Below are positions 1,647 through 14,906 of a stretch of 38,107 nucleotides of DNA, piece after piece; the stretch's first letter is position 1, and every line of letters starts with the position of its first letter. The stretch is from NCBI RefSeq assembly GCF_030692605.1, contig NZ_JAUYUD010000125.1:1-38107 (forward strand). Reading direction: 5' to 3'. This DNA comes from Lutibacter sp. (GTDB lineage Bacteria; Bacteroidota; Bacteroidia; Flavobacteriales; Flavobacteriaceae). The notes under the pieces were generated by a model. It saw nothing but the letters and a program-made list of their open reading frames with translations, did no database searches and had not been told where the DNA came from. The translations under genes and the position numbers were made by a program.

Positions 1647-2318
1647 TTACGAATACTTCCAAATATAACCCCCACTATTGGCTCTTTCCCCTCTACAAGA
1701 TCTAGAAATACACGTCTTACTCAATCCTATTTGTCTTGATGCATCTGCAACTGAAACAAATTTAGAAATAAAAGAACCTTCAAGGGAATATTGTAATACT
1801 TCCTTTTTTCTTGTATCTAAATCTGGCTTAAAAGGTTCAGTAAAATTATAACTCCAATAAAACCCATTATATGCTTTATTTACACTTAAACAAGCTCTAC
1901 TAATGCATTGTTTAGTTGCATTCACTGCATTGCCTGCATCCGTTAAACAATTATAAGAATTAACTAAAATTCCATCTATCAAATTATATTGATAAACAGT
2001 TTTCTTAAAATCTCCACCTATTGAACTATTGTAACCAGCATCTTTGGAATTAAATTCATTGATATATTTCTGTTCCATTTGTGCTAATTCATCTGCACAT
2101 GATGCAGTGTCAACTTGCTCCCATTTAAAAGCCTCAGCACCATAAGTGCCGATTGCTTCTTGAAATTTTCCTTCTTCACCTCTGGCTGCTCTTTCCAAAT
2201 GATCTAACTTACGTTGATGTATTGAATTTGTTGTTGCTCCAATGTAAAGCTCTCCATTTACTGTATTTTGAGCTTTATATATAATATAATTATACTCTTC
2301 TTTCATCATCTCCTTCAT
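1647..2318 (-). CDS. GIY-YIG homing-type endonuclease with NUMOD1 repeats
   Basis: Free-standing homing-endonuclease-like protein, 223 aa. Seen: GIY-YIG core with YIIY at 11-14 and YIGAT at 25-29, a conserved-looking Arg at 36, Glu at 82 in MEQKYINEF, and Asn97 in GYNSSIGG. Two NUMOD1-type DNA-binding repeats follow (about 107-157 and 173-222), each with a hydrophobic YQYN/LQYS start, a helix-turn-helix (ATKQCISRAC; LSKTCISRSC) and an aromatic end (GFYWSY; GYIWKY). Known: this architecture is typical of phage and intron homing nucleases. Its start overlaps the end of the upstream ATPase gene by 29 bases; in-frame Met codons at residues 4 and 5 are alternative starts. No intron or intein is visible nearby. 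Confidence 0.88.
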   Translation of the reverse strand: MKEMMKEEYNYIIYKAQNTVNGELYIGATTNSIHQRKLDHLERAARGEEGKFQEAIGTYGAEAFKWEQVDTASCADELAQMEQKYINEFNSKDAGYNSSIGGDFKKTVYQYNLIDGILVNSYNCLTDAGNAVNATKQCISRACLSVNKAYNGFYWSYNFTEPFKPDLDTRKKEVLQYSLEGSFISKFVSVADASRQIGLSKTCISRSCRGERANSGGYIWKYS

Positions 2319-3360
2319 TTTTAATGTATTTATAATTAACAGAAGCGTAATTACCTAAACTTGGGCTAAATATTTTACGTTCCTTTTCTAAATTTTGTAA
2401 ATAACTCCCATATTGCCTCTCCTTTATTCCTAAATCATTTGATAGGATATTATATAGTTCTTTTTTAGTATAAGTACAGGTACTGTTATTGTCTAAATAA
2501 CTACTAATTATTTCAGGTTTTTCAGTTGCTCTTCTCTTATCAGTTCTTGCTAATAATTCATCCTCATCAACATCATTTAAGTGATTTAACCAACAGCTAT
2601 TATCAATTTCAAATTCTTTAACTATATCGCTATCATCAGGTGCATACCTAAAGAAAACATTTTTTACATATCTATGATTTTTACTGGTCCTACTTACTCC
2701 AATTGCGAAATCAGATTCTTGAGCAAATACAGCACTTCCTTTAATCTTATCCATTGTAATTGGACAATCAAACATTTTAGTAGTATGATGTATACAAATT
2801 AGTGTGATTTTCAAATCATAACATACTTCCCTTAATTTTTGCATCAACTTTTCAGAATCAGCACTATTTTCTAATTGCCCTAAATTCATTCTGGTAATAC
2901 TATCAATAAAAACAACTTCAGCTTCGGAATCCATAATCGTATTAATCAAATTATCATAATCAGATTCTCTAACTATTCTTTTCGAAAAATCAATTGGTTG
3001 AAATCTGTAATTCTCACCAATTAGCAGTTGTTCTTCTTCATTTAATACTTCAAACTGCATTCGATTTCTTTCGATTCTACTTAACCAAAATTCTTCCAAA
3101 CCAACAAATAATACCTTTTTAGGAATTCCATCTAGAGGATATTCAAAAAACTCATCCTTACCCATAGCAATGCTCATTGCTAAATTTTCACAAAAAATTG
3201 TTTTGCCACTTTTACTTGGACCAAAAACCAATCCAAATGATTTTTCTTTAATCCCACTCCATAAAAAATTTGTTTTAGGTGCGGTCTCATACTTCACCAG
3301 CATTTCATTCAACGTAAGGAATCTTTTCTCACTTACTTCTTCATTTTTAATATTTTCCAT
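2290..3360 (-). CDS. RepA-like AAA ATPase (AAA_25 type)
   Basis: Second RecA-fold ATPase of the element, 356 aa. Seen: Walker A GPSKSGKT at 47-54, a LFVGLEE strand at 84-90, Walker B VVFID at 149-153 followed by SITRM, a double histidine at 191-192 and GSA at 208-210; the last 90 residues look like a winged-helix region (TKKELYNILSNDLG). The order of motifs matches the plus-strand ATPase at 356-1471, but the sequences are clearly different. It probably acts in element replication or initiation. Its 3' end is overlapped by the GIY-YIG gene, so both are probably on one transcript. The likely control region is the long stretch 3361-3660. Confidence 0.75.
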   Translation of the reverse strand: MENIKNEEVSEKRFLTLNEMLVKYETAPKTNFLWSGIKEKSFGLVFGPSKSGKTIFCENLAMSIAMGKDEFFEYPLDGIPKKVLFVGLEEFWLSRIERNRMQFEVLNEEEQLLIGENYRFQPIDFSKRIVRESDYDNLINTIMDSEAEVVFIDSITRMNLGQLENSADSEKLMQKLREVCYDLKITLICIHHTTKMFDCPITMDKIKGSAVFAQESDFAIGVSRTSKNHRYVKNVFFRYAPDDSDIVKEFEIDNSCWLNHLNDVDEDELLARTDKRRATEKPEIISSYLDNNSTCTYTKKELYNILSNDLGIKERQYGSYLQNLEKERKIFSPSLGNYASVNYKYIKNEGDDERRV

Positions 3361-3695: not shown

Positions 3696-3731
3696 CTGCA
3701 TTAATATGTCAAATCAATGCAATTAATGCAG
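3696..3731. repeat. perfect 10-bp inverted repeat
   Basis: CTGCATTAAT (3696-3705) and ATTAATGCAG (3722-3731) are exact reverse complements separated by 16 bases. The right arm lies within the tandem 9-mer array at 3717-3743. It could be a protein-binding site or part of a replication or transfer origin. Confidence 0.7.
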
Positions 3732-3743
3732 TAGATGCAATTA
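3717..3743 (+). repeat. three tandem 9-bp repeats headed ATGCA (array A)
   Basis: ATGCAATTA, ATGCAGTAG and ATGCAATTA follow one another without gaps at 3717, 3726 and 3735. The same pattern occurs at 14727-14753 beside the integrase. Tandem short repeats at close to a helical turn are typical of iterons or of arm-type or excisionase sites. The binding protein is unknown. Confidence 0.65.
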
Positions 3744-3830
3744 TTAAACTAGTTAAGGCATTTTCAGTGGCTTTGATAGAGGAGTGCCGTCTCAAAAGTT
3801 GGTTATCAAAATACAGTATCTCCTAATTAT

Positions 3831-4088
3831 TTACTTATCTTCTACTATGAAATCAAAGTAATGATAATAATAAGCTTGTCCATTTATTATATAAACGGTT
3901 TTTAATTCTTGTGTAATTTTAATTCTATCTACCCAAACTACTTGCCCTTTCTTTAATGTTCCAACATCAGTCAAGACGAGAACTTCGAAAGGACAAAATA
4001 GTATTTTGAGTAAATTATTATAAGTAACAATCCAGAGTTCTTTAGGATTACTAAATTGTAATAATTTCAATAATTCTTTTTCATTCAT
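3831..4088 (-). CDS. hypothetical protein, 85 aa
   Basis: Compact open frame with an acidic N-terminus (MNEKELLKLLQ) and a middle and C-terminal half rich in beta-strand-like stretches, such as EVLVLTDVGTLKKGQVVWVDRIKI and AYYYHYFDFIVE. The KKGQVVWVDRIK part could be a small beta-barrel. There is no signal peptide and no family I recognise. It lies 63 bases downstream of the DUF3871-like gene on the same strand and may be the last gene of that unit. Confidence 0.6.
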   Translation of the reverse strand: MNEKELLKLLQFSNPKELWIVTYNNLLKILFCPFEVLVLTDVGTLKKGQVVWVDRIKITQELKTVYIINGQAYYYHYFDFIVEDK

Positions 4089-4151
4089 ATTTTATTTGTA
4101 GGTGAATAATTACAACTTGAACTTCATCAAATTGAAAAAATAGCTATAATA

Positions 4152-5156
4152 TTAATTAGACAGTAGCCAGTTTGGAACGTTGTTTTGTATTGAATTACCT
4201 AGGTTATTGATTAACTCGTATGCATTTACATTACGCTCAAAATTTGAATCTATGTAACTGCTCTTGTTGGCTTCAGTAAAAAGATTGTATAAACTCCATA
4301 AATTAATAGAGCCATCTTTATTTCTACTGAAGTTTGGACAGTTATAATAATCCTTTACCACATTGTTTATCTGGCTGTCATTTAGTGTAATTGGAAATAC
4401 GCTTTTTTGCGCATTCTTTTCCAAATGCTGATACATTCTGGCTTTTCCAATAAAGTGTGCAAATTGCTTTTCAGACAACTGATATCTACTCATTTTTTCC
4501 ATATTACCTAAATGCTTTTCTGAATTATAACCTGAAAACAATTGAGTCATTTGTTGTTCTAATTCTAAAATAGATCCTATTCTTATTTCATTTGAAAAAC
4601 CATCTGTAGAAATACAGAGATTTGTGCAAACCTTGTTTTTAAACCCTATAAAAACTTTAAATTTTTCCAATGATTTTCTGCTATACAAATTCTCTTGGTT
4701 GTAGGCTCTTACACCGCCAACACTTAACGTAAGCTCGTTACCATTCACAATTTGTTTCACACCAGGAATATCAATAATAAAAGCACATCGTTCATAATAC
4801 ACTGTCTTTTCAAAATCCCTCAATTCTTTAGCTGGTTTCCCAATAGCTGAGGGAATTCTCCCCTTCACAATATGGCTCACTCTTATATCTGGCTCATTTA
4901 CTTGCATCTCAGGAAATAACTTTTGAACCACTTCACTTGCTTTATCTATAAACTGATAATGACTTAAAGTTGATTCATTATCTTTTGAAAACACAGGTAT
5001 GATGCAATCCTTTTGTAGGTGGTTTAAAGTCACCTGTTCTGTGTTTGCTTCAATAAAATTTCCTTTACTTACAGTATTAATTACTTGTTCTTTTGGGATT
5101 ATTTGCGTATTACTTGCTATCAATTCCATTTGATGTGTTTTTAGACGGTTGAACAA
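4152..5156 (-). CDS. DUF3871-like protein
   Basis: A 334-aa soluble protein that I match by appearance to the DUF3871 family, found in Bacteroidota mobile elements and of unknown function. Seen: a NFIEANTE stretch near residues 33-40, IRVSHIVKGRIPSAIGKPAKELRDFEKT near 91-118 (typical of the family as I recall it), and a helical C-terminus ending NWLLSN. Its start overlaps the end of the Sak4-like gene by 47 bases; Met10 (start at 5129) would reduce the overlap to 20 and is a fair alternative. The fixed linkage with the ATPase upstream suggests a role in DNA processing. Confidence 0.7.
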   Translation of the reverse strand: MFNRLKTHQMELIASNTQIIPKEQVINTVSKGNFIEANTEQVTLNHLQKDCIIPVFSKDNESTLSHYQFIDKASEVVQKLFPEMQVNEPDIRVSHIVKGRIPSAIGKPAKELRDFEKTVYYERCAFIIDIPGVKQIVNGNELTLSVGGVRAYNQENLYSRKSLEKFKVFIGFKNKVCTNLCISTDGFSNEIRIGSILELEQQMTQLFSGYNSEKHLGNMEKMSRYQLSEKQFAHFIGKARMYQHLEKNAQKSVFPITLNDSQINNVVKDYYNCPNFSRNKDGSINLWSLYNLFTEANKSSYIDSNFERNVNAYELINNLGNSIQNNVPNWLLSN

Positions 5157-6015
5157 TTTGATTATTAGGTATTATTTGAGAAGTTACATTTTCAATTTCT
5201 GCCTTTCTTTGAATGACACTATCCTTGATTTTTATTTGGTAGGTTGGATATTTAGAATAGATGTGTCGTAACCCTTCTAATGTTGTACATTGATTTATTT
5301 CAGAAAAGATATTTTGAAGTAGTTCCTGCTCTGACTTCCCATCATTACACCATTCCTTTAAAATCTTTCCTGTTCCTTTTGAGATTACAAACTCTGGTTT
5401 ATTCATAAATAAGCCTGTTCTATCTTTTGAAGCTACTGCTAAATGCTTGTCATTTATGAGTTCAAAATTGGTGGTTAATTCATATTCAAATCCTTCTCTG
5501 GTTATCTCCTTGGTTCCGTGTTTAATTACTTTGGTTCTACCGTTTGAATCACTATCCAATGAATAGTCAATTTTTCTTCTAGCAGTTGTAATTACGTGAC
5601 ATTTCGATTGTAAAATAGCATCAATAAAAGCTTGATGCCTTGGACTTATTCTTGCCCAGTCCTGAAACCTACCACCTAACTGCTCGTGTAACTGCAAACA
5701 ACCTCCTTTACCATTCCATTCGTGTGTAATGCTATCAATGATAATAACTTCTAATTTAGCCTTTTCACACATTTTAATGGCTTCTATATACCTTTCTGGA
5801 CTATAAGGTTCCTCTAGTGACAATACGTTAAACTCTCCTAAATGTGCATACAAACTTGCACTGTTATTTTCAGTATCAATAATGGCTATTTTTGACCAGT
5901 CATTGGTAATTCCATAGGCTAATAATAAAGCAGAATAGCTTTTGCCAAATCCACTTGCACCACTTAATCCAAGTCGTAATTTTACTTGATTTCTTTGCGC
6001 TTGTTCTAATTTCAT
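5110..6015 (-). CDS. phage-type AAA ATPase (AAA_24; Sak4-like recombination protein)
   Basis: Compact RecA-fold ATPase, 301 aa. Seen: Walker A GASGFGKS at 19-26, a strand with IIDTENNSA (46-54), Walker B VIIIDS at 90-95 followed by ITHEWNGKGG, and TTARRK (about 144-149), with a polar, flexible C-terminus. Known: proteins with this motif order in phages act in homologous recombination or single-strand annealing (Sak4 group) and work with an SSB. It lies between a DUF3871-like gene and a small possible SSB gene. Recombination or repair of the element is the likely role; a direct annealing function is not proven by sequence. Confidence 0.7.
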   Translation of the reverse strand: MKLEQAQRNQVKLRLGLSGASGFGKSYSALLLAYGITNDWSKIAIIDTENNSASLYAHLGEFNVLSLEEPYSPERYIEAIKMCEKAKLEVIIIDSITHEWNGKGGCLQLHEQLGGRFQDWARISPRHQAFIDAILQSKCHVITTARRKIDYSLDSDSNGRTKVIKHGTKEITREGFEYELTTNFELINDKHLAVASKDRTGLFMNKPEFVISKGTGKILKEWCNDGKSEQELLQNIFSEINQCTTLEGLRHIYSKYPTYQIKIKDSVIQRKAEIENVTSQIIPNNQIVQPSKNTSNGIDSK

Positions 6016-6085
6016 AATAATAGTATTTAGTGTTTATAATTAATTTTGTGATTGCTACTAATTGTCTAAAAAAAAGACAAAAAAA

Positions 6086-6107
6086 GGAGCTACATTGCTG
6101 TAACTCC
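6086..6107 (-). terminator. intrinsic terminator
   Basis: On the minus strand a stem GGAGTTACA/TGTAGCTCC (plus 6086-6107, one mismatch, loop of four) is followed by a long T tract (plus A run 6080-6085 and more beyond). It lies just after the stop of the 114-aa gene, so transcription of that gene can end here and the ATPase gene may have its own promoter in 6016-6080. Confidence 0.7.
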
Positions 6108-6133
6108 TCATTCTAATTGATACTGTTTGAAGT

Positions 6134-6478
6134 TTAAAATACTTCTTCTTTCATAATAACATTCTCTTTCAAAATGCTTTCTTCCTCACCAACATACTCG
6201 AATTTATGCGTTAAGGTTATTATTTCTCCTGAATTTGGAATTGCGTACTCATAAGGTTCAGAATCTACCCTTTTTACTTGTCCAGGTAATTGTGTTCCTT
6301 TTAAAGTTTCACAAATTAATTCATTAAAAGTACAGGAAACTCTAGCTGTTCTAGCAGTTAAATAAGTACTTCCTGTTTCTTGACTTTTTACAGCTTCTAT
6401 CCCACCTTGTACTATAAGTGAATTAAAAGTTGTTCCATCCTCTCTTTGATACGTTTTGTAATCTACAATTGTTACCAT
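6134..6478 (-). CDS. small beta-rich protein, possible single-strand DNA-binding protein
   Basis: A 114-aa protein with alternating strand-like segments (VTIVDYKTYQREDGTTFNSLIVQGG, STYLTARTARVSCTF, GQVKRVDSEPYEYAIP, ITLTHKFEYVG) and an acidic, flexible tail. The N-terminal pattern of a strand, a turn with a modified-residue-like YQREDG and a second strand is like an OB fold. Its position next to a Sak4-like ATPase fits an SSB partner, since Sak4 proteins are known to work with one. The OB-fold call is inferred; I do not recognise the family by name. Confidence 0.55.
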   Translation of the reverse strand: MVTIVDYKTYQREDGTTFNSLIVQGGIEAVKSQETGSTYLTARTARVSCTFNELICETLKGTQLPGQVKRVDSEPYEYAIPNSGEIITLTHKFEYVGEEESILKENVIMKEEVF

Positions 6479-6509
6479 AGTTTTTAAAATTTTAAGATTA
6501 TTTAAGGCA

Positions 6510-6522
6510 CGGGGGTATCCCG
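6510..6522. repeat. GC-rich short palindrome in an intergenic region
   Basis: CGGGGGTATCCCG is a CGGG/CCCG inverted repeat inside otherwise AT-rich DNA, followed within 20 bases by GAGAGTGGGGGTTG. The intergenic stretch 6479-6610 otherwise holds A/T tracts. The G-rich block is unusual for this genome; a control or processing site is possible. Confidence 0.4.
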
Positions 6523-6610
6523 CAAAACCAAAAGAGAGTGGGGGTTGAAGACTAGATTAAGTCGCTTTCACTTTTCTAAAAAAAATTGAAAAAAATTTTG
6601 GCAAAAAAAA

Positions 6611-7390
6611 TTAATATGTAAAAACAGCCTTACCCGTTTCCCCATTTGAAACTCTTACATAAGTAACTTGGATTGGATAATTATCCGAATTATATTGATA
6701 ATTAGCTGTATATACTAATGTCCCATCTCTATAAATCTTTGTCGCATTATTTATGTAATAAAAGTCAAAGAAATAATCAAAAACTTGAATATTAATATAT
6801 TCAACATATCCAAATTTTCTAAACAATATATTCATTGGATTAATACCATCGTCAAATTCAAATGTATATATACTTTGGTAGGATTTTCCTTCATTATAAA
6901 TTACCTTGTCAATTTGATTATTCTTATAATAAATATTTACAGATTCACAATCAGAATCAGAACATTCTACACTTTGAACCAACCCTTTACTATCAAAATT
7001 ATATTGCTTACTTCTACTTTTAAATGCATTGTTATTTAACCAAACATATTCTATCAAATATTCATTATCATTAAAATTACTAGCATAATTAAAATTTAGT
7101 GCTACCGAATTATTTGGCACATTACTATTGTCATAATACTGCTTGATTTTGCTAATCTTATTATTTGAATTATATGTATAAACTTCATAATTACCCCTAT
7201 TTAACACACTGCTTTTTGTTAGCTTATTATCTTCATAATAAAAATGACTGCCACTTTCAGAACCACTATACAAAATATCTTTTATAAGTTTAACACTATT
7301 AGGTTCCTCAATAATATTAATATCATCTTTAGATTCATCACCACACGAATATTGTAGTAGAATTATGGTTAAAACAGTAAATAATTTCAT
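6611..7390 (-). CDS. predicted lipoprotein with YD-like repeats
   Basis: Probable surface or periplasmic lipoprotein. The start at 7390 is chosen because it places a signal peptide at the N-terminus (MKLFTVLTIILLQYSCG) with a lipobox ending in Cys16; the longer frame from 7417 adds nine polar residues before it. The mature part contains repeated strand-turn-strand units (YYEDNKLTKS, YNSNNKISKIKQYYD, YNFDSKGLVQSV, YKNNQIDKVIYNEG, YQYNSDNYPIQVTY) like the YD-type repeats of Bacteroidota lipoproteins. The function is unknown. It is the last gene of the cargo run; no strong terminator is visible after it. Confidence 0.75.
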   Translation of the reverse strand: MKLFTVLTIILLQYSCGDESKDDINIIEEPNSVKLIKDILYSGSESGSHFYYEDNKLTKSSVLNRGNYEVYTYNSNNKISKIKQYYDNSNVPNNSVALNFNYASNFNDNEYLIEYVWLNNNAFKSRSKQYNFDSKGLVQSVECSDSDCESVNIYYKNNQIDKVIYNEGKSYQSIYTFEFDDGINPMNILFRKFGYVEYINIQVFDYFFDFYYINNATKIYRDGTLVYTANYQYNSDNYPIQVTYVRVSNGETGKAVFTY

Positions 7391-7433
7391 CTTGTTAATT
7401 TTTTCATAGAATTTCATAATAATTGATTTTTAA

Positions 7434-8030
7434 TTAATTTGTGATTTTTATGGATTTATGTTTAATCGTTTTAAGAAGTACTAGTTCAAACCCTGAAACT
7501 TGATACAATTCCTGTTCGCTTTCATCGGCATTACCATCTAATATGGTAACAAATTGTTTTGTTTTTTTATTCAATTTTTGAATTCTGATATAATCCCAAT
7601 CTTCGATATGTTTATATTTTTTTTGTTCTATATCATATAAGTAATATTTAGACCAAATTACCTTTCCAGAATCAATTGGTAATGAGAAATCTATATATCC
7701 ATCCATATTATAATCAAAGAAAGATATTCCAATTTCACCTAAAGCTATAACATCTTCTATCTTTTCAATTGTATTTATCAAGAGGTTTTTCTTGAATATT
7801 TTTAAGGTTTTTATTCCTCCATAATATCCAATATTATCTGAATAAAATAATTTATCATCCCAAATTACATCAAATCTAAATTCATCTATGGTAAAACTTT
7901 TGGTTTTCTTCGTTACTGTAAAATGTTTTAGGTCATTATCTTTTAATACCAACCATTCCTTATTTTTTATATTTTGTGAATAGGATATTAAGTTGATGAA
8001 GACTAATAAAATAATTAGAATTTTTTTCAT
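7434..8030 (-). CDS. secreted protein with a DxDG-type segment
   Basis: Hypothetical exported protein. The start at 8030 is preferred to 8072 because MKKILIILLVFINLISYSQ is then a clean signal peptide. The mature part is beta-rich and holds FFDYNMDGYIDFSLP, which resembles the calcium-binding-like DxNxDGxxD segments of XAC2610-like proteins. The end of the protein is lysine rich. There are 16 bases to the downstream lipoprotein gene, so the two are probably cotranscribed. Role unknown. Confidence 0.7.
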   Translation of the reverse strand: MKKILIILLVFINLISYSQNIKNKEWLVLKDNDLKHFTVTKKTKSFTIDEFRFDVIWDDKLFYSDNIGYYGGIKTLKIFKKNLLINTIEKIEDVIALGEIGISFFDYNMDGYIDFSLPIDSGKVIWSKYYLYDIEQKKYKHIEDWDYIRIQKLNKKTKQFVTILDGNADESEQELYQVSGFELVLLKTIKHKSIKITN

Positions 8031-8137
8031 TTTGTTTATTCTTAAAGTTGAATTAATTATATAAATATTCATTTTGATAAACTAGATGTATTTTACAACT
8101 GAATTTACACAAAACATTTTATAGAGCATAGTTATTA

Positions 8138-8494
8138 TTAATCCCAATATAAATCCCCCATACTAAAACGTAGGTTTTGAGTATTGCATTTAGGACATTT
8201 ATATGTCCCATTTGTCAATAAAAGTTCCCTTCCCAATTCAAAAGCATGCCAACTTTCAATAACTTGTTTTCCTTTCTCACCAATTAATAACCTGTTGTCA
8301 AATGCAATAATATTTTCCTCTCCACATTCAGGACATTTTGGATTTAAATCCAGAAGATTCACTTCAACTACATCAGAACAATTTTTACAAAAACAAGGGA
8401 AAAAACACTCATAAGAAGATGACTCCATTCCACCTCCTATTAAAATGCTTTTATTTAAACCACACTTACAACTAACTTTGACTTGTGAACCCAT
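8138..8494 (-). CDS. zinc-ribbon protein, 118 aa
   Basis: Cytoplasmic protein with three probable zinc-binding knuckle pairs: CxC at 9-11, a cluster of cysteines at 30, 34, 36 and 39, CPEC at 54-57 and CPKC at 100-103. There is no signal peptide. The pattern suggests metal-stabilised rubredoxin-like ribbons, seen in DNA-, RNA- or protein-binding factors, but no named family is recognised. It starts 5 bases after the stop of the upstream membrane-protein gene, so coexpression is likely. Confidence 0.7.
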   Translation of the reverse strand: MGSQVKVSCKCGLNKSILIGGGMESSSYECFFPCFCKNCSDVVEVNLLDLNPKCPECGEENIIAFDNRLLIGEKGKQVIESWHAFELGRELLLTNGTYKCPKCNTQNLRFSMGDLYWD

Positions 8495-8499
8495 AATAT

Positions 8500-8706
8500 C
8501 TAAGAATTACATTTAGAAAAGATAAATAATAAAACAATTCCAATAATCAATCCAATAATTAAAGTCTTGGTATTACTTTGTTTATTGTCTTTTACATTAT
8601 TGGTTCCTTCATTCCATTCTCTAAATCCTCTTCCTGCTAGAAAACTAAATATTACAAAAAAAACCAAAGCAATTACACCTGCAAATACTATAAATAAAGA
8701 ATCCAT
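8500..8706 (-). CDS. two-TM membrane protein, 68 aa
   Basis: The open frame extends to 8763, but I place the start at the ATG 8704-8706, which lies four bases after the stop of the upstream gene and begins directly with a membrane helix (MDSLFIVFAGVIALVFFVIFS). A polar loop with GRGFREWNEG and a lysine/asparagine stretch follows, then a second helix (TLIIGLIIGIVLLFIFS) and a CNS end. Function unknown; inner-membrane location inferred. Confidence 0.65.
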   Translation of the reverse strand: MDSLFIVFAGVIALVFFVIFSFLAGRGFREWNEGTNNVKDNKQSNTKTLIIGLIIGIVLLFIFSKCNS

Positions 8707-8710
8707 AATA

Positions 8711-9142
8711 CTATATTTTTGGTATGAAACGGTATTTACCTGAAAAAGAACCCTCAGATTCAAAATGAAAAATTATATTTAAAATATTTTCACTGTCCCA
8801 ACAAAAACTTCCATTAAAGGGATTCTTATCATCTAATGCTTTAAAATATTCTCCATCAATTACAACCTCTCTATCAAAATAGCCAGAATTTGAACTGAAG
8901 TTATCCACAATATCTAACAATTCCCCTTCGGTATAATAATTACCAACCAAAAGTTCAACCTTATCATTAAATTTAGAGAACCTAATATCATTTTTTTTAA
9001 AATAAACTAAATGATATCTTGGTTTTTCATCTTTATCCATTAACGCAACATTAAACATTCTTTCAAGCCTGCTTGGTTTCTCATAATCGCTTTTGGTACA
9101 TTTTTTAATATATAAACCCTTATCGTATGTTTTTAAATTCAT
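8711..9142 (-). CDS. hypothetical protein, 143 aa
   Basis: Soluble protein with no signal peptide or membrane helix, beginning MNLKTYDKGLYIKK. The middle is strand-rich with charged turns and a short helix (YTEGELLDIVDNF), and the end has a strand-like FHFESEGSFSGKYRF. No family is recognised. It resembles the small, variable proteins of effector or immunity islands in general appearance only. It is separated from its neighbours by 14 and 4 bases in the cargo run. Confidence 0.6.
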   Translation of the reverse strand: MNLKTYDKGLYIKKCTKSDYEKPSRLERMFNVALMDKDEKPRYHLVYFKKNDIRFSKFNDKVELLVGNYYTEGELLDIVDNFSSNSGYFDREVVIDGEYFKALDDKNPFNGSFCWDSENILNIIFHFESEGSFSGKYRFIPKI

Positions 9143-9156
9143 TGAGTACTTTTTTA

Positions 9157-9579
9157 TTAATTAAAAATTCCTATTAGCATAAACACAAAAATTAATGATA
9201 GCAGTGCACTCACAAGACAACCTCCTGATTTTTTCTTTACATACCCTTTTTTAAGTGCTACGTATTCTTCCTTACTAAAATGATTTAAACTGGTTTCATA
9301 TATTACACTTTGCCATTCTGATTCAGATATATCAGAACTAATAGCTTTTGTATCACTTTGGACAATTGATTTAAATCCTAACATAGTGACAATGCTAAAA
9401 TAAACTAATCCATTTTTTAACCTTGTCAATTCATAATAATCAAAGCCCTTGTCAAAATTTCGAAGGGGAATATAATACGATATTTTAATAGAATCATCTG
9501 ACACAAGTTTTGGATTTTTATCTCCAATATAAAACAACAATGCATTCTTAAAATTTGGATATTCATCTTTAATTTTCAT
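9157..9579 (-). CDS. tail-anchored hypothetical protein, 140 aa
   Basis: The N-terminal 110 residues are soluble and mixed alpha/beta (ISYYIPLRNFDKGFDYYELTRL), followed by a basic YVKKKSGG and one membrane helix near the C-terminus (CLVSALLSLIFVFMLIGIFN). This is a C-terminally anchored layout. Its start codon lies inside the end of the small upstream gene by 11 bases, which points to translational coupling. Function unknown. Confidence 0.6.
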   Translation of the reverse strand: MKIKDEYPNFKNALLFYIGDKNPKLVSDDSIKISYYIPLRNFDKGFDYYELTRLKNGLVYFSIVTMLGFKSIVQSDTKAISSDISESEWQSVIYETSLNHFSKEEYVALKKGYVKKKSGGCLVSALLSLIFVFMLIGIFN

Positions 9580-9736
9580 CTTTTTTACTTTTTTTGTTAT
9601 TCCTAAAGCTACTTAATATTATAATTACGACCCCCGCTAATGCCATTACTAACATTTTAGCTTGCTCCGCACCAGTACTAGCAAATAAATTGGTTATTGA
9701 AAAAATTAATAGTCCTAATGTTAGTTTTGTTTTCAT
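9569..9736 (-). CDS. small membrane protein, 55 aa
   Basis: ATG at 9734-9736 and TAA at 9569-9571. The product starts with a signal-like segment (MKTKLTLGLLIFSITNLFAS), then EQAKMLVMALAGVVIIILSS as a membrane helix, and ends in a basic RNNKKSKKDEN. It overlaps the start of the downstream gene by 11 bases, which argues that it is a real gene. A plus-strand frame over the same bases (9594-9785) looks like a shadow. Function unknown. Confidence 0.6.
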   Translation of the reverse strand: MKTKLTLGLLIFSITNLFASTGAEQAKMLVMALAGVVIIILSSFRNNKKSKKDEN

Positions 9737-9792
9737 AATCTATTCTTATATTATTTATTTTAAATTTTACACCTATTACAATTAGTATCAAC

Positions 9793-10278
9793 TTAAAAAC
9801 AATTAAGCTCATCTTTTAAAACAAATTTATTTTCAGTAACTGTTGAGCCTTTTAAATGGCCTTCCAAATAAAAAAACACACTTTTAAGAGGGTATTTTTT
9901 TAATTCCTCAAAATCAACTTTTCCAATTTTATACAAGCCCATTGATACATCCCTTCCGTTCATAACTATAGTTTCCGACATTAATGGAACTAAATCAATT
10001 CCCTTAATATTTGTTGTTTGAATTATTGCATTTTTGGTTAATTTTTTAGGAACCATTGATTTAAACAACACAGAAATATTCAACATTAACTCATCAGTAG
10101 TAATATTTTTGTAGATGGAAATGCCAACTTCATATTCAGATTGACGTATTACTGGCTGAGGATTAAAGTATTTAATCACATTGCCATCAGGTCTAACAGT
10201 AGTTTTTAAATTACATTGACTTATTGAAGGTGTAATTATTAAAATAATAAATGAAATTGTTATAATTATTTTTTTCAT
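9793..10278 (-). CDS. secreted hypothetical protein, 161 aa
   Basis: Signal peptide MKKIIITISFIILIITPSISQ, then a beta-rich mature part with a conserved-looking YFNPQPVIRQSEYEVGISIYKN and two cysteines (about residues 22 and 160) that could form a disulfide. No catalytic motif is recognised. It starts one base after the stop of the 59-aa gene, so it is cotranscribed. Function unknown. Confidence 0.65.
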   Translation of the reverse strand: MKKIIITISFIILIITPSISQCNLKTTVRPDGNVIKYFNPQPVIRQSEYEVGISIYKNITTDELMLNISVLFKSMVPKKLTKNAIIQTTNIKGIDLVPLMSETIVMNGRDVSMGLYKIGKVDFEELKKYPLKSVFFYLEGHLKGSTVTENKFVLKDELNCF

Positions 10279-10279
10279 T

Positions 10280-10459
10280 TTATGCTTTTTTTGATGGCTT
10301 TAGCAATAGGTATGCAAACCAAGATATTAATACAATTGCTAATAAATGTCCAATTAATTCAGGAGCTTCATATGAACTAACTTGTTTAAAAAAACTCATT
10401 AACGAACCAAGTGTACCAATAATTAATAATACACCGGCAATAATTTTAATTGCTTTCAT
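10280..10459 (-). CDS. small two-TM membrane protein, 59 aa
   Basis: ATG at 10457-10459 and TAA at 10280-10282. Two membrane helices (KIIAGVLLIIGTLGSLMSFF and ELIGHLLAIVLISWFAYLLL) are joined by a short loop with SSYEAP, and the end is basic (KPSKKA). The stop is one base before the start of the next gene and 23 bases separate it from the gene upstream, so it belongs to the cargo run. Function unknown. Confidence 0.65.
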   Translation of the reverse strand: MKAIKIIAGVLLIIGTLGSLMSFFKQVSSYEAPELIGHLLAIVLISWFAYLLLKPSKKA

Positions 10460-10482
10460 ATTTTTAATTTACAGTTGAATAT

Positions 10483-10905
10483 TTATGTGATTGTCATCGA
10501 ATACAATATTTTTCCGTTAGATGGGTTTATTATTTCTGAAATAAAAATTGTACTATCACCTTTCATATAAGAATCAACTTGTAAATTATTTTTAGTTGAT
10601 TTTCCCATATATTTATAAGAAGATTTTTTAATCTCATTGATAATATTTTTTTGCAATGAACTTTTAAATGTCATAAACAAAACAAGACCTTTCCCATTAA
10701 AACCAATTATTCCACTCCCATCATTAGCTTTCCATTGGGCACCTCCATTAATAGTTTTAAAATATGAATAGTCTTTACCTTTTAAAATTAGTTGTGTATC
10801 CTTTATAGACTTTGTTTTAAATGAAATAAGTTCATTTAGTGTAATATTTTGAGTGAATACTATTGTGGTAAATAGAATTAATAACAATGATATAGGTTTT
10901 CTCAT
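10483..10905 (-). CDS. secreted hypothetical protein, 140 aa
   Basis: First gene of the cargo run. It has a clear signal peptide (MRKPISLLLILFTTIVFTQ) and a small mature domain with YSYFKTINGGAQWKANDGSG near 46-65 and a strand-rich end. No named family is recognised. Its start is 84 bases from the divergent XRE regulator gene, and the space between holds a 16-bp palindrome, so the regulator may control this run. Confidence 0.6.
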   Translation of the reverse strand: MRKPISLLLILFTTIVFTQNITLNELISFKTKSIKDTQLILKGKDYSYFKTINGGAQWKANDGSGIIGFNGKGLVLFMTFKSSLQKNIINEIKKSSYKYMGKSTKNNLQVDSYMKGDSTIFISEIINPSNGKILYSMTIT

Positions 10906-10939
10906 AGCTTATTTATTTTTATTAAATAAAAGTTAAATA

Positions 10940-10955
10940 TAGGCATATTTGCCTA
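10940..10955. promoter_or_regulatory. 16-bp palindromic operator candidate
   Basis: TAGGCATATTTGCCTA is a perfect 6-bp inverted repeat with a 4-base spacer. It lies between two divergent genes, 35 bases before the start of the XRE regulator and 35 bases before the first cargo gene. XRE regulators commonly bind such palindromes and repress both sides. The link to this regulator is inferred. Confidence 0.55.
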
Positions 10956-10989
10956 CTAATTAATACTAATACTCTACGAATTTTGCCTT

Positions 10990-11214
10990 GTGGAGTATTT
11001 AAATGATTCAGCGTTTTTAATAGCCTTTGGTAAGAACCTTAGAAAACACAGAAAAGCAAATGGTTTTTCCCAAGAACAACTTGCTTTTGATTTAGGTGTT
11101 GAAATTTCCCAAATAAGCAGAATTGAAAGAGGTATAATAAATACTTCAATTGTTAACATTAATTCTATTGCGAACGCCTTAAAAATTGACATAAAAATTT
11201 TATTTGATTTTTAG
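10990..11214 (+). CDS. XRE-family helix-turn-helix regulator
   Basis: A 74-aa single-domain DNA-binding protein. The HTH_3 fold spans about residues 11-72, with RKHRKANGFSQEQLAFDLGV as the first helices and ISQISRIERG as the recognition region. The start is a GTG at 10990; no ATG is available upstream in frame before a stop and none downstream keeps the domain whole. It is divergent from the cargo run, and a 16-bp palindrome lies between. It probably controls itself and the cargo genes. Confidence 0.85.
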   Translation: MEYLNDSAFLIAFGKNLRKHRKANGFSQEQLAFDLGVEISQISRIERGIINTSIVNINSIANALKIDIKILFDF

Positions 11215-11271
11215 ACAATATTTTTTTCAAACGCCATCACTCAAAACTACTTTCATTTACTAAATTTAGTA

Positions 11272-11285
11272 TACGGATATCCGTA
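11272..11285. repeat. perfect 14-bp palindrome between convergent genes
   Basis: TACGGATATCCGTA is fully self-complementary and lies between the stop of the XRE gene and the stop of the minus-strand 89-aa gene. It is not a usual terminator (no T tract). It may be a protein-binding or nuclease site. Confidence 0.45.
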
Positions 11286-11291
11286 ATGACT

Positions 11292-11561
11292 TCAAAAGAA
11301 TGAGTCTTCTATCAACTCCTTTTTAAGACTTTCTTGAATTTCATCCCAGAAATACAAAAACTCTTCATTACCTTTCTTTTCATATATCATAATAACTTTT
11401 GAATGCTTATCCATCACAAGAATTGTATTCATTCCGCCAAGACATCCAACCAAAGAGTTTCTATAAAACGAATCTTTAAATACTCTTTCTACTTGGTTTT
11501 TTTTAAATTTGAGATTTTTTTTTGTTAAAAATTGTTTGCATAATTTTATTATATTTATCAT
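11292..11561 (-). CDS. hypothetical protein, 89 aa
   Basis: Small basic protein with a lysine-rich N-terminus (KLCKQFLTKKNLKFKKNQVERVF), a central GCLGGMNTILVMDKHSKVIMIYEKK that looks like a beta-hairpin core, and an acidic helical tail. No membrane helix and no family that I recognise. It is divergent from the WYL-like regulator, sharing an intergenic region full of ATGCA sites, so it may be controlled by that regulator. Confidence 0.55.
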   Translation of the reverse strand: MINIIKLCKQFLTKKNLKFKKNQVERVFKDSFYRNSLVGCLGGMNTILVMDKHSKVIMIYEKKGNEEFLYFWDEIQESLKKELIEDSFF

Positions 11562-11640
11562 TAATTATTATGCAATAATAAACACATCGAATGCAGCCTA
11601 TCTGCATTGAAAAAATAAAATGCCCGTAAATTTAAATGCA
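11538..11640. promoter_or_regulatory. cluster of ATGCA sites with AATGCAG palindrome
   Basis: Five ATGCA sequences on either strand occur at 11538, 11570, 11591, 11603 and 11636. Two of them form the inverted repeat AATGCAG-CCTAT-CTGCATT (11590-11608), whose centre is about 20 bases before the start of the regulator at 11620. The same AATGCAG word occurs in the inverted repeat at 3696-3731. A shared binding protein, probably the adjacent regulator, is inferred. Confidence 0.5.
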
Positions 11641-12288
11641 CTACTTCGATACAAAACTTTAGATGCTTGTCTTAGAAATAGGCAAATCAAATGCACAATT
11701 GATTTATTAATAGATAAATGCTCAGAAACTCTAAGTGAAAGTGTTGGCATTAATATTGGTATTTCAGAAAGAACAATCCGAAATGATATTAGAATTATGC
11801 GTAGTGATATTCTTGATTTTAATGCTCCAATAGTTTTTGAAAATGGATATTACAAATATAGTAATAATGATTATTCTATTTTTGACAGACCTATTCAAGA
11901 AATGGATTTATTAAAAGATGTTCAAAGCGTATTAGTTGAAAATTTTGATACTATAAATAATGAAAACATTCAACATTTAATAGTTGAATTAGCAAAAATT
12001 ACCAAAATAAAAGTGCCAAAAAAATGTGTTCCAGAGGGGTATGGGATTTATGAAAGTGTTGAACCTGGAGCTATTAGAGAAATTAATCTTTATGAGGAAA
12101 AATTGAGAAAATATATTAATGACAAGTACCGTAGAACTAATAAAATAAAAAGATATTATTGGCCATTTTCACTATTTAAAAAACCTAAATTAATAGTTAA
12201 TAAAAAAATGGAGAAGGAAAAATTTAATTGGGGAATTTTATTAGAATCCTTAAATAAGGATGAATATAAAACTATTACTTATAATTGA
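11620..12288 (+). CDS. HTH regulator like the N-terminal part of WYL regulators, lacking WYL
   Basis: A 222-aa protein whose first 95 residues match by eye the winged-helix domain at the front of Bacteroidota WYL-type regulators: MPVNLNALLRYKTLDACLRN, a helix ending LIDKCSETLSE, then ISERTIRNDIRIMRS as the recognition helix and NAPIVFENGYYKY as the wing. The usual C-terminal WYL ligand-binding domain is absent; instead a basic tail with YYWPFSLFKKPK is found. Known: BrxR/CapW-type WYL regulators control defence genes. Inferred: it regulates this island, perhaps itself via the palindrome at 11590-11608. It could be a truncated remnant, but the frame is intact. Confidence 0.7.
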   Translation: MPVNLNALLRYKTLDACLRNRQIKCTIDLLIDKCSETLSESVGINIGISERTIRNDIRIMRSDILDFNAPIVFENGYYKYSNNDYSIFDRPIQEMDLLKDVQSVLVENFDTINNENIQHLIVELAKITKIKVPKKCVPEGYGIYESVEPGAIREINLYEEKLRKYINDKYRRTNKIKRYYWPFSLFKKPKLIVNKKMEKEKFNWGILLESLNKDEYKTITYN

Positions 12289-12300
12289 TTTTTATAAAAA

Positions 12301-12323
12301 ACCACCCCCAAGTAGGAGGTGGT
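12301..12323. terminator. hairpin terminator after the WYL-like regulator
   Basis: Stem ACCACCCCC (12301-12309) / GGAGGTGGT (12315-12323), one mismatch, loop of five. On the plus strand it ends the regulator gene, although the T tract is weak there. On the minus strand the stem is followed by a good T tract (plus 12290-12300). A second short hairpin TGTAGG/CCTACA lies at 12342-12361. Confidence 0.6.
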
Positions 12324-12429
12324 AAATTGCTATGAAAAAGATGTAGGAAAAATAACCTACAATTCAAATATAGCTAATTAAAATATAATTTCTACAAACT
12401 AAATCTAATATCGTAAATTAGCTTTATCT

Positions 12430-13407
12430 ATGGATGAGAATTTTAATTACTATTTAAATGTATTAAAGAAGCTAAACAGAGCCTACAATAAAGGATTAGG
12501 TAAAGCTCCTCATAAACCAATATTACTAATTTCAGTAATTCAACTTATAAGAAACAATGTAATAACTACCAATAGAATTTTTATAACTCCTGAATTGGTT
12601 TTATCATTTAAATCAAATTGGAATAACCTAGTAAATACAGGTCATACACCAAATTTTTCACTTCCTTTTTTTCATTTAAAAAATGAAAGTTTTTGGACTT
12701 TAACAGCCAATTTAGGATTTCAAGAATCCTTATTGAAATTAAAAAGCACCAATACCTTTAAAAAATTAAAAGATACTATTGCTTTCGCAGAAATAAACAA
12801 ACAACTTTTTCTTTTACTTAAAAATAATGAAACCAATTTATTGCTAGAACAGTTTCTTATAAAAGAATATTTTGGGATTGCTAATTATGATTATTTAACA
12901 ATAGACTCATCTAAGTTTGAACTAAAAATAGAAGATGAAATTTTAAATGAAGACAAAACAACCTATCAGTCAAGAATTAATGAACTTCATTCCACTTTAG
13001 ATGAAAATGAATTTGAAGAAGAGATATTTATACGTGGTGGATTATTCAAAAAAACGATTCCAAAAATTTACAATTATCAATGTTGTATTTCAGGAATGAA
13101 AATTGATACCACTACAAATGCCCAAATGGTAGACGCTTGTCATATTATTCCTTTCAGTATTTCTCACGATGATACTATTCCAAATGGGCTTAGCTTATCT
13201 CCCAATTTGCACCGAGCATTTGATAGGGGACTAATCACAATTAACAAGGATTATATAGTTAGAATTTCTCCAACTGTAACTGACAATAAATCAGTTTATT
13301 CAATTTCTCAGTTTAATGGAAATCAAATTATTCTTCCAATAAAAACCAATTGGTATCCCTCTACAGAATCTTTAATTTGGCATACTAAAGAAGTTTTTCA
13401 GCTATAA
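12430..13407 (+). CDS. HNH endonuclease with probable sulfur-binding (ScoMcrA-SBD-like) domain
   Basis: Probable type IV restriction endonuclease, 325 aa. C-terminal HNH domain: QCCISG near 217-222, DACHIIPF at 235-242, then NGLSLSPNLHRAFDRGL at 252-268, the layout of HNH_2-type McrA nucleases. N-terminal domain (about 1-150): GKAPHKPILL at 24-33 and NFSLPFFHL followed by Trp89, as in the sulfur-binding domain of ScoMcrA-like enzymes, which recognise phosphorothioate-modified DNA. The SBD call is by motif recall and should be treated as likely, not certain. No dnd modification genes are visible here. The gene converges with, and overlaps by six bases, the integrase gene. Confidence 0.78.
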   Translation: MDENFNYYLNVLKKLNRAYNKGLGKAPHKPILLISVIQLIRNNVITTNRIFITPELVLSFKSNWNNLVNTGHTPNFSLPFFHLKNESFWTLTANLGFQESLLKLKSTNTFKKLKDTIAFAEINKQLFLLLKNNETNLLLEQFLIKEYFGIANYDYLTIDSSKFELKIEDEILNEDKTTYQSRINELHSTLDENEFEEEIFIRGGLFKKTIPKIYNYQCCISGMKIDTTTNAQMVDACHIIPFSISHDDTIPNGLSLSPNLHRAFDRGLITINKDYIVRISPTVTDNKSVYSISQFNGNQIILPIKTNWYPSTESLIWHTKEVFQL

Positions 13408-14598
13408 ATTTTTAGTCAACCTTATCATTTCTTCACTTACTTTCTTTTGAACTATTTTACCATAACTATCTTCTGTTATAGTAATACTGCTATGCCCAAG
13501 AAGTTGGGATACAATTTCCATAGGAACATCATTATATAATAAAACTGTAGATGCAAATGTTTTCCTTGCTGTATGTGTCGTCAATCTTTTATCTATTCCT
13601 AAGATACTTGCTATTTCTTTTAAATAAGAATTATAACGTTGGTTACTGCAAATCTTAAATATAAACCCAGAATTTGCATCAGCATATTTATCAATCAGTT
13701 GTTGTGCCTTCGGTAAAATTGGCACTGCTATATTTTTTTGGGTTTTCTCTCTTACCACTTCAATCCAAAACTCACCATCAAAACCCTTTGAAATATGTTT
13801 CTTTTGTAGCTTGCTAATTTCATTGTATGCCAATCCTGTATAACAACTAAACACAAACCAGTCTTTAACTTGCGTTAATCTAGTTTGCTTAAATTCAAAT
13901 GATTCAAATTGTTTTAATTCATCTACAGATAAAAATACAATCTCTGTTTTCACCTTTTTTGCTTTATACAACATAAATGGGTCTCTTTCCAAATAACCTT
14001 TAGATAATGCAACTTTAATAGGGTTTCTAAACCTTTGTATAGTTTTATTAATAGTAATTTGTTTTTGTTTCTTTTCAACTTTTAAGTAGTATTCAAAATC
14101 AACCAAAAACTGTAATTTTAAACTTTTCAATGGCAAATCATTGGTTTTAAATTTCCATCTTATAAAGGATTTTACATTATTCTTCACATAGTACAACTTA
14201 TTCCAAGTTGCTTGTTTTATATCTATCCCCACAAGCTTTTTAAGCATGTTTAAGTGACTTTCAAACTGTTCAACTACATTGTGTTCTTTAGTTGGTTTTT
14301 TGCCTTTATACAGCATGTGGATATCATCTACAGTAAAATTCCCCTCCTGAACTTGAAGCAATAAAAAAGCCCTATTAATTTTACTTTTAATAAGGCTTAG
14401 TTGAGTGTTGATGTAGTCATTTTCATCATTAGGAGGTTTAGCTACTTGGTGTTGGCTATCCCAGAAAATTGAATTTATAAATATTCCTGTTGAAAATTCT
14501 TTTCTTTCTTTTTTGTAGGTGATTCTGCATTTTATAATAGAATTCCTTTTTTTATTGATTTTAGATTTTTCTATAAATAATCTTAAAGTAAGTTTCAT
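13402..14598 (-). CDS. tyrosine site-specific integrase
   Basis: Integrase/recombinase of the Bacteroidota type, 398 aa. The N-terminal region (1-60) has the beta-sheet look of the Arm_DNA-bind_5 domain; a SAM-like core-binding domain follows (about 105-205) and the catalytic domain is C-terminal. Catalytic residues: Lys285, His342 and Arg345 in THTARKTF, His369 in LGHSS, and nucleophile Tyr379. The first catalytic arginine is missing: TGLAYNEIS has Ala257 there, as in the IntDOT-related group where this position is also not Arg. It lies 235 bases from the tRNA-Asn 3' end, its likely target. Confidence 0.93.
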   Translation of the reverse strand: MKLTLRLFIEKSKINKKRNSIIKCRITYKKERKEFSTGIFINSIFWDSQHQVAKPPNDENDYINTQLSLIKSKINRAFLLLQVQEGNFTVDDIHMLYKGKKPTKEHNVVEQFESHLNMLKKLVGIDIKQATWNKLYYVKNNVKSFIRWKFKTNDLPLKSLKLQFLVDFEYYLKVEKKQKQITINKTIQRFRNPIKVALSKGYLERDPFMLYKAKKVKTEIVFLSVDELKQFESFEFKQTRLTQVKDWFVFSCYTGLAYNEISKLQKKHISKGFDGEFWIEVVREKTQKNIAVPILPKAQQLIDKYADANSGFIFKICSNQRYNSYLKEIASILGIDKRLTTHTARKTFASTVLLYNDVPMEIVSQLLGHSSITITEDSYGKIVQKKVSEEMIRLTKNL

Positions 14599-14629
14599 AA
14601 TTTTAAATTTTGGTGGTTATTTAAAAGAG

Positions 14630-14659
14630 GTGCCCCTTTTAAAAATTGAAGTACCCCTT
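14630..14659. repeat. direct repeat GTRCCCCTT, 21-bp period, upstream of integrase
   Basis: GTGCCCCTT (14630-14638) and GTACCCCTT (14651-14659) are spaced by 21 bases, two helical turns, in the leader of the integrase gene. They may bind a regulator or the integrase itself. The GC-rich words stand out in an AT-rich region. Confidence 0.4.
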
Positions 14660-14726
14660 ATATCACACCTTTTTCTCATCTAAAAAAGTTGACAAGTTGG
14701 CAATTTAATGAGTTTGGAAATATTGG

Positions 14727-14753
14727 ATGCAATGAATGCACACAATGCAATAA
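14727..14753 (+). repeat. three tandem 9-bp repeats headed ATGCA (array B)
   Basis: ATGCAATGA, ATGCACACA and ATGCAATAA follow one another at 14727, 14736 and 14745, between the integrase gene and tRNA-Asn. The same period and core word are found at 3717-3743. They are good candidates for arm-type integrase or excisionase sites, or iterons. Confidence 0.65.
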
Positions 14754-14819: not shown

Positions 14820-14832
14820 TTTATCAAAAAAG

Positions 14833-14906
14833 CTCCCCCTCTTGGACTCGAACCAAGGACCCTCTGATTAACAGTCAGATGCTCTAACCAACTGAGCTAA
14901 GGAGGA
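14833..14906 (-). tRNA. tRNA-Asn (GTT)
   Basis: Read on the minus strand the 74-nt gene folds as a standard cloverleaf: acceptor stem TCCTCCT / AGGGGGA with one G-U pair, discriminator G at 14833, D-arm with AGCTCAGTTGGTTAGAGC, anticodon loop CTGTTAATC with anticodon GTT, and a T-arm with GGTTCGAGTCC. The CCA end is not encoded. Its 3' end faces the integrase, so it is the probable attachment site. Confidence 0.97.

Follow-up and report, generated by a model that had tools for sequence, protein, structure and literature searches.

Arrays in the element and its relatives

We analyzed a 38,107-base stretch of DNA from Lutibacter sp. (contig NZ_JAUYUD010000125.1, here C63; the whole stretch is termed the window), which carries an element with an integrase gene adjoining tRNA-Asn. 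The tyrosine integrase has an Arm-DNA-bind_5 domain (gene int, 13402..14598, minus strand), and the tRNA-Asn gene (14832..14906, minus strand) is the integration site, the attachment (att) repeats having been located in relatives. The element also carries a replication-type module, a GIY-YIG/NUMOD1 endonuclease-like gene (1647..2318, minus strand) and a gene for a RepA-like hexameric helicase (AAA_25; repA, 2290..3360, minus strand) with a C-terminal winged-helix-like segment. Three arrays, each composed of three tandem 9-mers headed by ATGCA, accompany these genes. Array P (14727..14749, plus strand) lies between int and tRNA-Asn and reads TGCATN4TGCATN4TGCAT in the int sense, array D (3717..3739, plus strand) lies upstream of repA, and array G (1917..1939, minus strand) lies, inverted, within the GIY-YIG coding sequence downstream of repA, so that repA stands between D and G. 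We place a probability of about one half on the reading that these arrays are conserved, predicted sites for a DNA-bending protein that binds head to tail and that would be an accessory to the integrase complex at P, whereas at D and G it would control or assist RepA.

The three arrays are the only matches to ATGCAN4ATGCAN4ATGCA in the window and in the whole 3.1 Mb genome. The reversed control pattern has no match in that genome, and the ATGCA triple has none in 100 dinucleotide shuffles. A first-pass annotation had described two arrays, P and D, as intergenic and as unlikely to have arisen by chance. Both are present and intergenic, and the shuffles bear out its judgment of chance; the third array, in the GIY-YIG gene, was overlooked. 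Its figure of one ATGCA per 600 bases was too low, the count being 41 on the plus strand and 56 on the minus strand of the window, or about one per 390, which leaves the conclusion unaffected.

Eighty relatives of the integrase were retrieved, and the 300 bp upstream of int were defined as the P region in 80 cases (the window and 79 loci; L060, in which int starts its contig, was excluded). The D set comprises 31 regions, among which those of L014 and L097 are the same DNA. With the relaxed pattern TRCAY N4 TRCAY N4 TRCAY (9-bp period; hereafter, a strict array), 12 of the 80 P regions and 6 of the 31 D regions contain an array in the int sense, and none contains one in antisense. Spacings of 7, 8, 10, 11 and 12, as well as reversed or complemented controls, gave no match in the P and D regions. 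A background of 777,656 bases of the same loci holds five sense and four antisense matches (0.0017 per 300 bp). By their coordinates all five sense matches are D regions, and the antisense matches are array G in L051, L064 and L076 together with an array located immediately 3' of int in L031. When all views are pooled (1.76 Mb, partly overlapping), strict arrays fall at P, D or G with four exceptions: the L031 array, a P-like array in L018 with a displaced int, an array after a RepA remnant in G162, and inverted arrays in L167. In G122 and G319 an inverted partner array lies inside D. The inverted TRCAY arrays of L167 (9400-9480) belong to an integrative and conjugative element (ICE) that is different in other respects, where they lie between DUF3987 and DUF6371; this ICE has an HTH_17 gene, and its primase-like gene is present in one of 60 genomes searched.

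A scan of 299 genomes of the family with TTGCATN4TGCAYN4TGCAT found 19 places in 17 genomes. Context places ten of these, three of them supplied by the window itself, at P (five), D (one), G (two), a RepA remnant (one) and the DUF3987/DUF6371 region of another ICE (one); two of the ten, in L139 and L146, also coincide with short open reading frames, of 119 and 72 codons. Eight of the other nine are within open reading frames 100 to 930 codons long. A position weight matrix scored 19 of the 80 P regions in sense but 17 in antisense because TGCA is palindromic, and strict patterns were therefore relied on instead. Sought in related elements, as the first-pass annotation had proposed, the arrays prove to be site-like features of the att region and the replication module that are conserved in part of the relatives, in position and orientation alike, as judged by sequence comparison. 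Titles and abstract openings in the literature yielded nothing on these arrays, which is no proof of their absence from print.

Array P and the attachment site

Measured in 16 cases, of which four include one imperfect unit, the distance from the tRNA 3' end to array P is close to 61, 72 or 83 bp (57-63, 71-73 or 81-84 bp); G245, where a duplicated tRNA tail brings it to 158 bp, was set aside. At an 11-bp period these distances give R=0.74, a value reached by 4 of 20,000 uniform sets, and the 12 strict P arrays alone give R=0.69 (82 of 20,000), both statistics ignoring kinship. The P arrays of L024, L029 and L031, at 73 bp as taken from positions, belong to one genus. In L018, which was measured later than this set, the array lies 63 bp from the tRNA although int is 1.1 kb away, and both L018 and G097 have a displaced int but an array that is still in place beside att. 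These comparisons indicate that array P belongs to the att site, where it occupies one helical face and keeps its distance when int is displaced. L024 apparently contains two related elements in tandem, separated by a remnant of a tRNA-Met 3' end.

Three heptamers at a 0/12/33 spacing are also part of the P block; in the window they occupy 14663-14669, 14651-14657 and 14630-14636 (together 14630..14669, minus strand). They are degenerate here, and it is the relatives that mark them as probable arm-type sites: the heptamer sequence differs between elements and agrees within one. The triple scores at least 8.2 in 22 of 84 P regions and at least 6.6 in 55 of 84, as compared to 0 and 1 of 400 random windows. 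Covariation was calculated over 54 loci in which the triple scores at least 6.6 and starts with G, a set that excludes the window (5.7). Once core-binding and catalytic identity are removed, heptamer similarity correlates with that of the arm domain at a partial r of 0.235 (0 of 2000 permutations), against 0.107 for the core-binding domain (114 of 2000) and -0.035 for the catalytic domain (1447 of 2000). Among 1321 pairs with catalytic identity below 0.75 the arm value is 0.161, a figure given without a permutation test. The correlation with the arm domain is modest but specific. The triple is thus a likely set of arm-type sites for this integrase family and possibly the basis of an arm-site code, and on that assignment the TRCAY array would sit between the core and the arm sites. 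These loci present direct repeats that keep a constant helical phase and lie between the core and the arm sites, with kinship ignored in the phase and the arm sites themselves predicted. Upstream of int in L073 and L087 there are several extra copies of AGGTACAC, beyond the usual three heptamers.

The TRCAY consensus stays the same from one integrase to another, and close integrases lack the array beside them; sequence covariation was calculated for the heptamers only. The far ends of G097, G245, L013 and L023, which were located by att repeats, lack a strict array within the terminal 1000 bp; that of G097 may be a composite of two elements. The far end of G245 and its P region have AAGTTGTC repeats and AAAGGCATA in common. 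Another repeat common in P regions is a tandem 8-bp repeat at 14687..14702 (no strand assigned), which reads GCCAACTTGTCAACTT in the int sense. The sequence CAACTTGNCAA is present in 28 of the 80 P regions in sense and in one in antisense, and seven times on both strands of 617,963 background bases.

Arrays D and G and the RepA subtype

Of the nine elements with a RepA at least 42% identical to the window's, eight carry a strict array D (the window, L051, L052, L064, L076, G122, G245 and G319, but not G097). Within the 31-region D set this array is found in all five regions of this type, termed RepA(2290). Elements with a RepA 32-35% identical (L046, L053, L056, L058 and G258) have no strict D, and in L040 a D array precedes another downstream protein. 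Strict array G follows a similar distribution, with seven of eight elements that have RepA(2290) at 42% identity or more carrying it versus one of 19 others (L097; p=7e-5). D and G face each other across repA, 1.6-2.5 kb apart. The iteron-like combination of direct repeats beside a rep gene and linkage to rep type is therefore present, with L040, L097 and G097 as exceptions, and the comparison indicates that D and G are linked to the RepA subtype.

At the array G positions of the eight elements with this RepA, GCA encodes alanine in 21 of 22 cases, compared with 48 of 111 in the remainder of those genes (p=3e-6). For the other group of GIY-YIG genes the corresponding values are 15 of 29 and 92 of 251 (p=0.16). 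In L051, TACAY occurs in three of three D units and two of three G units, with a change of alanine to valine in the protein. The codon bias and this parallel change of D and G show that array G acts as a signal at the DNA level within a protein-coding gene; a coding coincidence as the source of the array at 1917 was rejected on the strength of the synonymous constraint.

Candidate binding proteins and the rest of the element

According to the reading that we favor, a head-to-tail protein would occupy the contiguous 9-bp repeats, with the consensus TRCAYTNNN and three units. Array P would serve as an accessory site, with the att core on one side, the probable arm-type sites on the other and its position confined to one helical face; a filament assembled there would bend the DNA and enable the integrase to bridge core and arm sites in excision or integration. 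D and G, which flank repA and point inward, may control or assist replication, either through looping of the 1.6-2.5 kb between them or as origin iterons, and the binder would come from the host or from a different element. The likeness of the arrays suggests one protein for all three places: P and D are as alike across classes (0.69) as within them (0.68 and 0.69), all having been picked by one pattern. When P and D arrays are paired by element, 1 of 24 pairings is as high as the own-element one (four elements; three rows used in the pairing comparison were not strict arrays).

Several known systems resemble this arrangement in part. BldC occupies 9-bp direct repeats in a head-to-tail manner, one protomer per repeat, and bends the DNA (PMC5859096). 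This MerR-like winged-helix protein shares with the present arrays the directional 9-bp repeats, the bending and a variable repeat number; it differs in its consensus, AATTNNNN(C) rather than TRCAYTNNN, and in being a Streptomyces developmental regulator, for which the accessible part of the paper mentions no att role (PMC5859096). In lambda, Xis and other DNA-bending proteins occupy the stretch that separates the core from the arm sites (PMC4880445). RdfS of ICEMlSym-R7A is an oligomeric winged-helix recombination directionality factor (RDF) that also bears on transfer and acts beyond att on transcription (PMC11963761). The filament sites of such proteins (lambda X1-X1.5-X2; RdfS) are likewise bound head to tail beside arm sites and core (PMC11963761, PMC4880445). 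Here, however, no RDF gene was found in the element and the array is on the int side of the core, and for RdfS no single base of its att site proved essential (PMC11963761). By analogy, the geometry and place of the arrays fit an Xis/RDF- or BldC-type protein. We infer a bending filament made by a winged helix-turn-helix protein of this kind, the same one at the three places, and a coupling of excision to replication.

Several observations weigh against this reading. Presence is patchy: 68 of the 80 P regions have no strict array, including that of L014, with an integrase 76% identical to that of the window. P is only loosely linked to D and G, as D and G occur without P in L051, L064 and L076, D occurs alone in L040, P occurs without D or G in L013 and L023, and L097 carries G but lacks both D and this RepA type. 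The integrases of L065 and L076 are nearly identical and their P region is shared, neither element having a P array, and the RepA type with D and G is in L076 only. The first-pass annotation had held that relatives with the same genes and no arrays would refute its proposal, and many relatives are of that kind. Own-element pairing is weak for D and G (340 of 5040) and absent for P and G (6 of 24). Beyond the integrase cluster, no gene family is positively enriched with P arrays among ATG-started frames of at least 40 aa, up to 11.5 kb downstream of int, in families found in at least 4 of 86 views. The 11-bp period of array P was the best of ten and was chosen after the distances were seen (10.5 bp gives R=0.71, 4 of 20,000), and the phasing statistics take no account of relatedness. 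HTH_17 (PF12728) is absent from C63, with six members in the window's own genome; the binder would therefore probably act in trans. In addition, RepA, through its modeled winged-helix-like C-terminus, could read D and G alone.

The first-pass annotation had proposed that one protein of the element binds both arrays. That a single protein could do so is compatible with the equal likeness of P and D, but an origin in this element is not borne out, given the absence of HTH_17 from the contig and the content of an island in which array P has no evident regulator beside it. This island of 20.4 kb (L023x 9775-30196, L023 plus L095) lies between 49-bp att repeats and has a P array. It carries int and a polysaccharide-use cluster (SusC-, SusD- and SusE-like proteins, GH66, GH31 and a sugar transporter), and it is probably a mobile polysaccharide-use locus. 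A Pfam scan of ten other proteins of the island, two of which matched nothing, revealed no replication or regulator family; nor was an RDF seen among ten proteins scanned and the small frames listed near the ends, where an unrecognized RDF is possible.

An alternative to a single binder, which we regard as possible but tentative, is that the arrays only look alike and have two different readers: an att accessory factor for P, and RepA through its winged helix for D and G, the latter arrays being origin iterons and autoregulatory sites. The close tracking of RepA(2290) by D and G, the contrast between L065 and L076 and the P array of the L023 island, where no RepA was found, all speak for it. 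The predicted model of RepA also suits a DNA-reading role at D and G: its C-terminus (mean pLDDT 81.5) follows an H-E-H-H-E-E order after residue 281 (H281-291, E296-298, H299-310, H314-326, E330-334, E337-340), and its best fold match is RSF1010 RepA. The iterons of RSF1010 are short direct repeats, and D resembles them in lying beside a RepA-fold helicase gene. In this element, however, one array is inverted inside the coding sequence of the downstream gene, and a similar array occurs at the att site of an island where no rep gene was found. The division between two proteins also fits poorly with the agreement of P and D in consensus, period, unit number and tolerated changes (both having been picked by one pattern), with the L040 array D beside another downstream protein and with the L097 array G without this RepA type.

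Two further explanations seem to us improbable. If the arrays were arm-type sites, the integrase would bind D and G as well as P, as the first-pass annotation had allowed. Lambda-type integrases use tandem arm sites, and lambda has three of them near the core on the int side, which array P resembles; the integrase is also the sole protein seen in all elements with a P array, and elements with a P array cluster on the integrase tree, with 14 changes against a mean of 18.9 after shuffling (1 of 500 was as low). However, it is another repeat set, the heptamer triple, that follows the arm domain, the four far ends contain no strict array, and close integrases occur without one; we therefore rejected the TRCAY array as an arm-type site, the heptamers being the likelier candidate. 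By analogy with IncC AcaCD, which acts on SGI1, the arrays might instead be operators for a regulator of a helper phage or conjugative element that switches int, repA and the downstream gene in a satellite-like island, the phasing of P being incidental; this, too, we consider a slim prospect. It would agree with the lack of transfer or capsid families among 20 element proteins scanned, with the lack of an HTH_17 gene in the contig and with the position of several sites adjoining int and rep genes. The P array, however, keeps its distance from the att core and not from int, as L018 and G097 illustrate, and this fits a recombination role better than an int promoter.

The favored reading of a head-to-tail bending protein offers a concrete site code by which excision and replication might be linked in small flavobacterial islands. 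For an integrase family that is widespread in Bacteroidota, it also distinguishes accessory sites from those that are probably bound by the integrase arm domain, and array G would be a case of a DNA operator conserved inside a coding sequence. A bolder version, about which we are doubtful, is that one filament-forming bender supplied in trans reads the att and repA-flanking arrays, in one case by way of an operator within a protein-coding gene, such that excision and replication of many flavobacterial islands that otherwise differ obey a single signal; should one protein indeed read all of these sites, a family of islands would have a switch in common.

The remainder of the element is organized as in many of the 80 integrase relatives, in the order int, cargo, 114-aa protein, AAA_24, DUF3871, 85-aa protein, intergenic D, RepA or another protein, and GIY-YIG, although not every relative has every gene. 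In the window the replication/recombination-type module (4152..6478, minus strand) comprises DUF3871 (4152-5156), a Sak4-like AAA_24 protein (5110-6015) and the 114-aa protein (6134-6478), and it is followed by the gene for the conserved 85-aa protein (3831..4088, minus strand). An att repeat of 14 bp was sought at the left of the window and not found, and the 21-base 3' end of tRNA-Asn, with up to three mismatches allowed, has a single copy in the genome. As C63 starts at window base 1, the left (far) end of the element is unseen.

Downstream of the 85-aa gene lies a conserved pseudoknot-like motif, perhaps RNA (3757..3831, minus strand), for which Rfam gave no match in the window. The motif follows the 85-aa gene in 26 of the 31 D regions, and array D stands 14-19 bp after it in six of seven measured elements (58 bp in L051); G319 has a D array without a recognizable motif, and the motif of G245 is diverged. 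Most of the 24 distinct copies from relatives can form two interleaved helices. Helix a has at least four Watson-Crick pairs in 22 of 24 own copies versus 413 of 552 with swapped partners, and helix b has at least four in 19 of 24 versus 313 of 552; mean stems are 5.21 own versus 4.28 swapped and 4.54 versus 3.50, respectively, values in which the stem picked by the script may not be the homologous one for L022, L030 and G258. The evidence for pairing thus comes from longer own stems and from many different but matching stems. A second RepA-like AAA_25 gene lies near the start of the contig (356-1471, plus strand) and may be part of a second element.

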